Part shown: positions 52,036-55,838 of the stretch, in pieces
How the letters are laid out: every line of letters starts with the position of its first letter
Numbering within the stretch: the stretch's first letter is position 1
Assembly: GCA_015228815.1 (NCBI GenBank)
Contig: JADGCV010000007.1
Span: 65,583 to 129,582 of the forward strand
Source of the DNA: Magnetococcales bacterium
GTDB lineage: Bacteria > Pseudomonadota > Magnetococcia > Magnetococcales > UBA8363
Direction: 5' to 3'
Length of the DNA stretch: 64,000 bases
Notes under the pieces: model-generated
Databases searched by the model: none
Told to the model about the DNA's origin: nothing
The model's input: the letters and a program-made list of their open reading frames with translations, nothing else
Program-made: the position numbers and the translations under genes

Positions 52036-53298
52036 ATGGGGGAAGGAAGCGTGTTGTTTCCAGGATGGAGGGTTTTGTGTGCCATGGTGTGTGGGCTGAT
52101 GTTGGCCTCGTGTCAGCCGCCACCGGATGTTTCTCCCATCGAACCGGCGGCCCCCGAGCTGCCGGCTGAAGTCAAACCATCCAGCGAAACAAGCCTGAGA
52201 CCTGCTTCATGGGACGAGGTTCGTTCCGTGTTCGATCGTGATGGTCAACGAAATTCCTGGGCCGATGCGCTGGAACAAAGTGTGGTTTATTACCAACGAT
52301 TGCCGCCAACGGCACCGGTACGATTTGGACCTCGGGTGGTCGAGGCGGGACGGATGCTCGTGGCGCTGCGGAAACTGGCCGATGCGGCCCGGACGGCGAA
52401 CCGCGACTCTTTTGAACGGATACTGACGGACGAATATGAAATTTTTCGTTCGGTGGGATCCGACTCCGCCGGCAATGTCCTGGTGACTGCTTATTATGAA
52501 CCCTTGTTACGGGGATGTTTGAAAAAGACAAAAAAATGCCATGTGCCTTTGTATCGGAAACCGGGTGATCTGATCGAGGCGGATTTGGGGCATTGGTTTA
52601 CCGACCTCAAAGGGCGGCGTTTGGTGGCGCGCATGGAGGGGGGGCGACTTCTGCCCTATCATGACCGTGCCAGTATCGATCGCAAAGGGAAACTTGAAAA
52701 GCGTGGTTTGGAGCTGGTTTGGGTCGATGATGCCATCGACGCTTTTTTTCTCCAGATTCAGGGGTCGGGGCGGGTGATGTTGGAAAATGGTGCGATGATG
52801 CGCGTGGGTTATGATGGCGCCAATGGTCATCCCTATCGCGCCATCGGAAAACTGTTGATCGAGGAGAAGGAAATTTCCAGGGAGGATATGAGCCTTCCCG
52901 CCTTGCGTGAATGGTTGTCACGGCATCCCGATCAGGTTGAGCGGGTATTGGAATACAATCCGTCCTATGTTTTCTTCAAGGAAATTAAAGGGGCTCCGGT
53001 CGGAAACATCGCCGTTGCGTTGACGGCGGGTCGGTCCATTGCGACCGATCATCGGTTGTTTCCCAAGGGGGCGCCGGGAATTTTGCAGACCTCCCTTCCT
53101 GTTTTCCAGGAGGATGGAAAGCAGGTGTGGCAATGGCGTGAGGATATTCGTTTCGTTGTCAATCAGGACACGGGTGGGGCAATTCGTGGTCCGGGGCGGG
53201 TTGATTTGTTTACAGGATTTGGTGATGAGGCGGAACGGGTAGCGGGATTCATGAAAAGTGAGGGGTCGGCGCTTTATTTCATTGTCCCGAAGCTGTGA
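52036..53298 (+). CDS. mltA: Membrane-bound lytic murein transglycosylase A
   Basis: A 420-residue lipoprotein with lipobox LASC (Cys26), so attached to the outer membrane. The MltA barrel (VTAYYEPLLRGCLKKTKKC) and the 3D domain NQDTGGAIRGPGRVDLFTG near residues 376-394, holding the family's catalytic aspartate, are intact. It cleaves peptidoglycan glycan strands. AAGGGGTG precedes the ATG. Just after it comes the inverted-repeat element. Confidence 0.93.
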   Translation: MGEGSVLFPGWRVLCAMVCGLMLASCQPPPDVSPIEPAAPELPAEVKPSSETSLRPASWDEVRSVFDRDGQRNSWADALEQSVVYYQRLPPTAPVRFGPRVVEAGRMLVALRKLADAARTANRDSFERILTDEYEIFRSVGSDSAGNVLVTAYYEPLLRGCLKKTKKCHVPLYRKPGDLIEADLGHWFTDLKGRRLVARMEGGRLLPYHDRASIDRKGKLEKRGLELVWVDDAIDAFFLQIQGSGRVMLENGAMMRVGYDGANGHPYRAIGKLLIEEKEISREDMSLPALREWLSRHPDQVERVLEYNPSYVFFKEIKGAPVGNIAVALTAGRSIATDHRLFPKGAPGILQTSLPVFQEDGKQVWQWREDIRFVVNQDTGGAIRGPGRVDLFTGFGDEAERVAGFMKSEGSALYFIVPKL

Positions 53299-53376
53299 CT
53301 GATGGCACTTTCCGGTGAAAAAAATAGTAACTGCCCGGATACTCTTCGGGTTTAGTTATTGAGAGAAAAAAGGGGT

Positions 53377-53407
53377 CTGGGGGATTGCCCCCAGGGTTTT
53401 GTTTTTT
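53377..53407 (+). terminator. Terminator-like hairpin in left arm of the inverted repeat
   Basis: CTGGGGG (53377-53383) and CCCCCAG (53388-53394), loop ATTG, followed by GG and a T-rich tract with TTTT and TTTTTT. On the reverse strand the same hairpin is followed by ACCCCTTTTTT, so it can stop transcripts in both directions. Confidence 0.8.
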
Positions 53408-53450
53408 CTTTTGTTTTTGACTTTGTTTTTTACGCGCCATTTCACCCGAA

Positions 53451-53485
53451 GCAAGATTCCCGCATGGTTTTTGCGGGAATCTTGC
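53451..53485. repeat. Internal hairpin A of the inverted-repeat element
   Basis: GCAAGATTCCCGCA (53451-53464) pairs perfectly with TGCGGGAATCTTGC (53472-53485), 14 bp, 7-nt loop TGGTTTT. Confidence 0.93.
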
Positions 53486-53501
53486 GCAGGCGCGCGCCCT
53501 T

Positions 53502-53540
53502 GTCCTGGTCTTTTCGCGGTTTTTGCGAAAAGACCAGGAC
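53502..53540. repeat. Internal hairpin B of the inverted-repeat element
   Basis: GTCCTGGTCTTTTCGC (53502-53517) pairs perfectly with GCGAAAAGACCAGGAC (53525-53540), 16 bp, 7-nt loop GGTTTTT. The loop is nearly that of hairpin A. Confidence 0.95.
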
Positions 53541-53541
53541 A

Positions 53542-53577
53542 CATTGCAAGTTTCCAGGCCATACTACTCTTGCAATG
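53542..53577. repeat. Internal hairpin C of the inverted-repeat element
   Basis: CATTGCAAG (53542-53550) pairs with CTTGCAATG (53569-53577), 9 bp, 18-nt loop. A weaker fourth hairpin may form from GCGTTT (53577-53582) and AAACGC (53598-53603). Confidence 0.85.
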
Positions 53578-53657
53578 CGTTTGCCTTCCTTCGCAAAAAA
53601 CGCGGAAATTCGCTTCGGGTGAAATGGCGCGTAAAAAACAAAGTCAAAATCAAAACC

Positions 53658-53686
53658 CTGGGGGCAATCCCCCAGACCCCTTTTTT
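53658..53686 (+). terminator. Terminator-like hairpin in right arm of the inverted repeat
   Basis: CTGGGGG (53658-53664) and CCCCCAG (53669-53675), loop CAAT, then ACCCC and six T. It is the mirror of the left-arm hairpin and can also work on the reverse strand, where a T-rich tract follows. Confidence 0.8.
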
Positions 53687-53723
53687 CTTTCAATAATTCA
53701 GAACAGGGGGACTGACGATATAT

Positions 53724-55838
53724 TCAATAATTGGCTCTGGCCTGCTGCCGCCGGATCCCGACCATGCTTTCGGAAACCTTCAGAGCAAGGCCAAGGGTCG
53801 AGATTCCTTTCGAATTCAATAGTTTTATAAGCCTGAGAAAAACTTCCGCCGTCACCAGGGTATCGCCCATGGCCGTATGACGGCGCTGGACGGTCACCCC
53901 AAAACGCCGGGCAATGGCATCCAGGGTATGATCGACCTCCCCTTCATGCAGATAAACCGAAAGCAGCAGGGTGTCCAGTACCGGAAGTTCAAAACGGACG
54001 CCCGTGCGTTCCTCCAGAAGTTGCAGAAAACGCATGTCGAAGGCGGCATTATGGGCTACCAGCACTGAATCGCCGACAAACGCCTTGAATTGCGGCAGTA
54101 CCTCCTCGATCGTCGGCTGATTGAGGACATCTTCTTCGGTGATGCCATGAATGTGCGTCGATTCCAGAGGGATGGGACGGCGCGGATTGACAAGTCGCTC
54201 AAACGTCTCGCCCTTGAGAATGCGCCCGTTGACGACCCGTACCCCGGCGATGGCGATGATTTCATCACCCTTGGAGGGCTGAAGACCGGTGGTTTCGGTA
54301 TCGAAGACAACGAAATTCATCCCGGCAAGTCCCCGTGCCGCCACCTTGCCCAGGGATTTGATGGAGGTCATCAAGGAAAAGTCATAAAACTCGGGACGTT
54401 CCTGGATGAATTGTTCCTTCTGTCGCCACTGCCGCGGCGAAGGGGGGAGCGGCAGGCGCAACATCGACTGCCCCGGCTGGCGATGTTTGCGGCTCCACAG
54501 TTCGCTGCCATGCCCTTCCAGGATTTCCTCGATGTTGAAGGTGGCATCACCATCGGAAATCATCAGGCTGCGACAGGACTCCACCGTGGAGGCGGGAAGC
54601 GGCGTGCCGACCCAGATGAAATCCAGATAGATGCGGTGGTTGCCCATCAACGCCTGGACCTCGATGGTCAAGGGATGGGCATGATCCCGGATTTTGAGGG
54701 CCAATTGCTCCAGGGCCAGGACCAGAGAAGGGGCATCGACCAGGACCCACAAGGGTTCGCCAACCCGGACCAGACTGGGGCCGTTGTTTTTTTCCAGGCG
54801 TTGGGACAATCCTGAAATCAGGTCCGAGGTGAGGACATCCGCCAGGGACCAGTGTTCGGTAGCCAGGGCATTGGCGTGGGCGGCCATTTGCGCGACAAGT
54901 TCCGAAAGGTCTTCTCCTTCACTGTGAATGATGTGCATGAATTGATTGCGGCTGGAAGGTTCCATGTCGGGATTTCCTGTCAGGGTTTCCGCGGCGGCGT
55001 TCAGGTTGGCCATCGGACCGCGAATGTTTTCAAGAAACCGGCGGAGCATGCGGTCGCTGTGACGCAGGAGTGAAACCCGGCGTCTCTCTCCCTCGAAGGT
55101 GATCAGGAAATGATTTTGCACCGGGTGACCACCGGAAAAAAGGCGCATGGTGCAGGAGAGGATCAGGGCATCGTGAAGGGTGGTGCAGAAAAAATGCATC
55201 GACTCCTTGTTGTCTCCCTCCGTGGAATGGACGTTGCGTTCGAGGAGGTGCATGGTGGTTTCGATGGGATGACGGGGGCAGAGGTCATACAGGGAGCGTC
55301 CCAGTCCCAGGGAATCCAGGTGGTTGCGAAAGAGGGATTGAACGGCTTGGTTGTACAGGATCATGTGCCCCTGGGCATTGATGACGATCAAGCCGATGGG
55401 CATGGATTGGATCACCTGTTCCAATTGCTCCATCCCTTCGGCGCTGCGGATCAGTGCCTCGCCGACCTGTCGGCGGGCATGAAAGAGTGCTGTCCCCAAT
55501 TGTTGTGTCGCGGTGGGGAGGGATTCGAGCCAATGATCGCCATCGATGGCGATGGCATGCAAGGCATTGGCGTTGGCCATGATTTCCACCCCACGTTCCA
55601 GGTGGGTCAAGGGGCGAAACAATACCCGGTCCAGCCATGCCCAGATGTGTGCCAGGATTCCCCCCAGCAGAAAAAGACCAAACAGCAACCAGGCGCTGGT
55701 TTTTTTCAACCATGCGGCCAGGGGCGCGTCGATGGTGGGCATCTGGGCGAAGGAAAACCAGGCGGTTCCTCCAAGAGCGACTGCCGCCAGGAGCAGAAAC
55801 AAGGCCAGAATACCCCAGAATCGTGAACGAGCGTTCAT
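53724..55838 (-). CDS. Membrane PAS / degenerate-kinase / DnaQ-like exonuclease fusion
   Basis: A 704-residue inner-membrane protein. Two helices (about 9-30 and 49-68) are followed by a HAMP-like linker, a PAS-type domain (about 137-235), a kinase-like dimerisation and ATPase-like region (255-465), and a C-terminal DEDDh 3'-5' exonuclease domain (505-680). The exonuclease motifs are intact: FDTETTG (Asp513, Glu515), AHNAAFD (Asp601) and RRHTAMGD (His654, Asp659). In the kinase part ENIRGPM stands where HELRTPL is expected (Glu270 for His) and no N-box is seen, so phosphotransfer is unlikely. Its start overlaps the response-regulator stop by 4 nt. Such exonucleases are found beside acetate-permease and DUF294 genes. 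Confidence 0.85.

Follow-up and report, generated by a model that had tools for sequence, protein, structure and literature searches.

A palindrome between convergent genes of a Magnetococcales bacterium as a probable worn copy of a dispersed, MITE-like, terminator-bearing repeat

In the 64,000-nucleotide stretch of Magnetococcales contig JADGCV010000007.1 that was analysed here (the window), two convergent genes point at a spacer that holds a large palindrome: mltA (MltA and 3D domains; 52036-53298, + strand) upstream, and a PAS plus RNase_T/DnaQ-type exonuclease gene (53724-55838, - strand) on the other side. The question is what this structure is and how it came to be there. The 341-bp palindrome that an earlier note had placed at 53356-53696 is indeed present, with inverted arms matching at 91% (53356-53421 with 53631-53696) and 92% (53409-53460 with 53604-53655), perfect hairpins of 14 bp (53451-53464/53472-53485) and 17 bp (53501-53517/53525-53541), and a centre hairpin at 92% (53539-53550/53569-53580). 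Folding, which the note had proposed as a check, gave -234.5 kcal/mol for the strand of the palindrome versus -108.5 +/- 5.2 for shuffled sequences (z = -24.3), which puts it far outside chance. That no ORF or transposase explains the palindrome holds locally; there is no plausible gene inside it. At a probability of roughly 70%, we read it as one worn member of a dispersed family of non-autonomous inverted-repeat elements, combining IS66-type mobility, terminator-like end hairpins and an older core with differing hairpin partners.

The true left start of the element lies at 53327 instead of 53356, with an outer segment (53327-53355, + strand) consisting of the IS66-like terminal inverted repeat GTAACTGCCCGGATACT and inner outer-arm sequence; this repeat has three mismatches to the family terminal repeat GTAACTGCCCAGGTACC, and its position matches that in other copies. 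The core follows on the + strand with the left core end TTATTGAGAGAAAAAA (53356-53371), conserved across the genus, the left end hairpin hp1 GGGGTCTGGGGGATTGCCCCCAGG (53372-53395), which has its T-rich tail inward and resembles an intrinsic terminator on the + strand, and a spacer of T-rich hexamers (units TTTTGA/TTTTGT/CTTTGT; 53396-53432), the length of which varies among copies. Further inward lie the conserved junction CGCGCCATTTCACCCGAAGC (53433-53452), being the left strand of the inner stem, hairpin A of type AAGATTCCC (53451-53485), the left strand GCGCAGGCGCGCGCCCTTG of a second stem (53484-53502) whose partner strand is deleted in this copy, hairpin B of class I (CCTGGTCTTTTCGC; 53501-53541), and the centre hairpin ACATTGCAAG...CTTGCAATGCG (53541-53578). 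On the right, comparison with full copies reveals a deletion junction (53579-53612, + strand), where hairpin C (class II) retains its left half only and runs directly into the right half of hairpin D (type GAATTTCC). It is followed on the + strand by the conserved junction GCTTCGGGTGAAATGGCGCG (53611-53630) and an A-rich spacer complementary to the left one (53631-53656), by the right end hairpin hp1 (53657-53680), terminator-like on the - strand, and by the right core end TTTTTCTTTCAATAATTC (53681-53699, + strand). The right end is worn, such that only the left terminal repeat remains; judging from other copies, 53700-53719 would be the outer segment in which the second repeat has become unrecognisable. 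Directly beyond, the exonuclease gene ends in AAT TAT TGA (53724-53732), the same letters as core end AATTATTGA, which may be chance or the trace of an older copy. The mltA orthologue of one sister species (G002) also carries a core copy on its 3' side (L212:2690-2829), with a different outer sequence (GTGTCACATTCATTAATC...).

Full copies of the element are approximately 415-463 bp long and run, from each end inward, through the terminal repeat, an A-rich end, the end hairpin (T-rich tail inward), the T-rich hexamer spacer and a CGCGCC-TTTCACCCGAAGC junction, and then through hairpin A (or D), a GC-rich stem, hairpin B (or C) and the centre hairpin. Compared to these, the window copy is a deletion derivative that lost ~65 bp from the loop of hairpin C to that of hairpin D, and a similar loop-to-loop deletion, between A and B, is found in other copies (L052, L054, L055). 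Near cores in two genomes (L055, L075) lies a further palindrome (CCAGGGG...CCCCTGGACCC).

The element is abundant, both here and in its relatives. The palindrome yields 106 BLAST matches in its own genome, although the true number of copies is lower because both strands of a palindrome match. The inner junction CTTCGGGTGAAANGGCGC occurs at 74 sites (0 control hits), and the end hairpin GTCTGGGGGATTGCCCCCAG, counted with up to 2 mismatches, occurs 121 times in the own genome and 14-326 times in seven sister species (G005 326, G004 279, G002 237, G003 82, G007 55, G006 15 and G001 14), again with 0 control hits. The suggestion of a newly spread, miniature inverted-repeat element was therefore right in kind, given the many copies, the inverted terminal repeats and the 8-bp target duplications (discussed below). 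Beyond the genus, many end hairpins in genus g7 (family f7) resemble those described here but have a different loop, and a comparable layout built from different stems occurs in family f10; among the matches listed with names, all hairpin-pattern matches are from Magnetococcales MAGs. Scanning genome contigs with the MltA protein recovered no relatives, and the names therefore rest on the hairpin pattern. A search of viral contigs, plasmids and phages gave no match, and a literature search, which mostly did not reach subscription papers, returned no description of this repeat. Assembly contigs frequently break off within copies (contig ends C3, C5, C17, C22, C25, C41 and C44), which the presence of such a repeat accounts for. 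An assembly artefact is an unlikely source of the repeats, considering that flanks differ among copies, that 8-bp duplications are present and that eight genomes are involved; it does remain a caveat for the pairing rule described further on.

How the element moved can be read from its ends. Full copies carry IS66-like terminal inverted repeats (GTAAC...GTTAC), and in the own genome 7 of 25 terminus pairs are flanked by exact 8-bp target duplications, versus 0 of 25 for lengths of 4-7 or 9-12 bp; the duplicated copies include lengths of 395, 415, 435 and 453 bp. GTAA ends and 8-bp duplications are features of the IS66 family. Members of this family elsewhere in Magnetococcales have GTAACTATTCA ends (L302, L305, L306), two of them with 8-bp duplications (GAAGCAGA at L305 and GTCTTTGC at L306), and at a further IS66 gene (L311) AGTACCTGGGCAGTTAC, the same terminal repeat as that of the element, directly follows the transposase stop. 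In the own 96-contig draft, the search for a complete IS66 element recovered only a fragment with different ends, and the partner is therefore either lost or unassembled; for a MITE, an autonomous partner within the same genome is usual without being strictly required. The terminal repeats and duplications make this a non-autonomous, MITE-like element in this genome. Most likely, an IS66-family transposase acting in trans would have moved the ~415-463 bp unit via its GTAAC...GTTAC ends, thereby generating the 8-bp duplications. Two side observations concern such ends. A 72-bp element (L047:1202-1273) has ends of the same type (GTAACCGTTCAG...GAACGGTTAC) and an 8-bp duplication (GAATATAT) without a palindromic core. 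At seven loci (L041, L049, L052, L053, L275, L282, L293) the terminal repeat of one element abuts the A-rich end of another in a recurrent junction ...TTATTGAAAGAAAAAAGGTAACTGCCC, which suggests repeated nested insertion or recombination at AAAAAAGG.

In sister species, the same core is found between other inverted ends, i.e. CAGGGCAATCGCATTT in G004, G005 and G007, TAATTCTACTTTGTTACATT in G002 and G003, and GGGCCTGTTGACATTC at L162, or without any outer inverted ends (L264, L266, L269). Many of the core copies there lack an outer terminal repeat or duplication, and IS66 can therefore not account for all of the spread. What lies between the IS66-like ends appears to be an older core that is common to the sister species, with identical end hairpins, four internal hairpins and the centre hairpin. 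Orthologous spacers in which the core is present in some species and absent in others point to gain or loss between species, the empty sites being too diverged to show exactly where core copies that lack outer repeats were inserted.

The location of the copies bears on what they might do. With genes called by a simple purpose-written gene caller, the own-genome copies lie in 22 co-directional, 10 convergent and 1 divergent spacers, and those at named Magnetococcales loci in 45, 16 and 6, respectively. Since a chromosome has roughly as many convergent as divergent spacers, the resulting 26:7 ratio of convergent to divergent sites (p = 0.0013) is a bias. Within co-directional spacers, the copy is nearer to the stop than to the start in 46 of 67 cases (p = 0.0013). 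Both end hairpins score as intrinsic terminators, each having a GC-rich hairpin and a T-rich tail that faces inward, and at one orthologous spacer, where four species have the core, L205 instead has an ordinary intrinsic terminator (GGGGTGCCGGAGG...GCACCCCTTTTTTT). Judged on sequence and location, a role of the element as a bidirectional transcription terminator is likely: copies would persist mainly behind genes, where the end hairpins would stop transcription coming from either side.

The 3'-side location by itself fits a tolerated parasite as well. The element could be a purely selfish MITE, with hairpins and location devoid of function and with survival behind genes simply because insertion is least harmful there. 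The terminal repeats, the duplications and the many deletion derivatives agree with this, as does the fact that MITEs are generally intergenic and have stable folds (PMC10969869), and in pneumococcus the spacers of convergent gene pairs are likewise enriched in RUP, BOX and IS elements (PMC3049150). It does not, however, explain why two-sided changes keep the structure across species, nor why the core occupies the place of an ordinary terminator at one orthologous site, and we consider it a doubtful, though not negligible, account.

These two-sided changes were quantified across five genomes of the genus, which together supplied 19 full copies. They occur at 42 of 120 pairs, in 174 cells versus 57.8 in shuffled and at most 33 in slid controls, a large gap even though the tested structure was derived from the same alignment, which favours structure. 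The four internal hairpins thus stay paired through many two-sided, compensatory substitutions. The claim that the symmetry looks selected therefore stands as far as compensatory changes go, but template-switch repair could give an equal pattern. According to that explanation, template switching between arms during replication copies one arm onto the other, perfecting the hairpins without selection for structure. Quasi-palindrome correction is an established mutation process, and the hairpin types are nearly all perfect despite their differing sequences. On the other hand, template switching should equally homogenise the larger palindrome across its two halves, whereas A and D, and likewise B and C, are unlike; as the cause it is rather improbable.

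The strong covariation and the fold energy would also suit a functional structured non-coding RNA or riboswitch. Against this, the Rfam covariance models gave no match above gathering score (only chance-level matches, mostly to miRNA models), and the element is symmetric and located mainly 3' of genes, with terminator-like hairpins on either side that would impede transcripts from reaching its middle, making such an RNA very unlikely. Least credible is a REP/BIME element mobilised by a REP-associated tyrosine transposase: the high copy number, the palindromic form, the 3' location and the core copies without target duplications recall it, but neither such hairpins nor the repeats flank the sole Y1 transposase gene that was found, the 8-bp duplications do not fit and the unit exceeds 400 bp versus 20-40 bp (although single end hairpins also occur), so that the REP identity was rejected and the REP-type binding site that had been put forward for the palindrome finds no support.

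To return to the reading of a mobile, terminator-bearing element, its hairpin partners follow a pattern of their own. The parsed full copies combine an inner hairpin of class I (type CTTTTCGC or TTTTTCGC) with one of class II (type GTTTGCC...TTCGC), and both orientations occur. Outer hairpins come in three versions, and within each of 14 own-genome copies A and D are of different versions (shuffle P 0.004-0.005, values that overstate independence since the copies are related by descent); short-read assembly may hide perfect palindromes, and for A and D a sister-species copy (L264) is an exception. Because a hairpin and its partner are nearly always of different versions, the palindrome is incomplete in the middle. 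The differing versions seen in the assembled copies would block pairing of the two halves through the middle, and this would in turn make cruciform extrusion and loss of the element less frequent.

Bacteria do not usually maintain long inverted repeats stably. In E. coli, SbcCD cuts a 246-bp interrupted palindrome at each replication (PMC3315005). None of the 8 genomes of the genus has an SbcD above the curated cut-off, the own genome containing a distant relative (433 aa frame). SbcC was likewise not found above its cut-off in the genus, which says little because just 1 of 14 control genomes passes this cut-off. Most g7 genomes have SbcD, and the cores seen in g7 are short; G016, however, has both SbcD and a long interrupted version of the element (L076), and the link between SbcD and the element is therefore suggestive at most. 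Tentatively, the core could be an old independent module that changes vehicles, using the ends of different insertion-sequence types with whichever transposase is present, while the rule that partners must differ would prevent so long an inverted repeat from turning into a full palindrome where, as apparently in this genus, canonical SbcCD is lacking; this combined scenario is speculative.

Several known systems resemble the element in part. SPRITE of Streptococcus pneumoniae, for which a bidirectional terminator role has been proposed, is likewise dispersed, resembles an intrinsic terminator and is found preferentially in convergent spacers and near 3' ends (PMC3049150), but it is likened here by description only: SPRITE consists of a plain 18-bp stem that ends in AAAA/TTTT, and no duplication has been demonstrated for it, whereas the element exceeds 400 bp and shows IS66-like ends, 8-bp duplications and four internal hairpins. 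MITEs derived from the IS66 family share matching GTAAC...GTTAC ends, 8-bp duplications, small size and the lack of a transposase gene, with related transposase genes present in the order, but differ in that our core also occurs between other ends, or none, in sister species, and that no complete partner was found in this assembly. BOX (S. pneumoniae) and BIMEs (E. coli) are modular, mosaic, structured repeats in many combinations too, while here each fixed position is occupied by one of several alternative hairpin versions, the two partners being different. CIR (Caulobacter, Brucella) also has inverted repeats and two arms, but is described as two linker-joined arms without end-to-end pairing (PMC2229807), in contrast to the paired ends, four inner hairpins and IS66-like ends found here. 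Overall, the element is a MITE-like, probably terminator-bearing repeat, known in kind, but unusual in its size, its conserved alternative hairpins and its changing outer ends.

What stands out is that a genus without SbcD above the cut-off maintains numerous inverted-repeat elements of more than 400 bp, in which hairpins co-vary and partners differ. If the terminator role holds true, a mobile element would be rewiring transcript ends across a genus of Magnetococcales.
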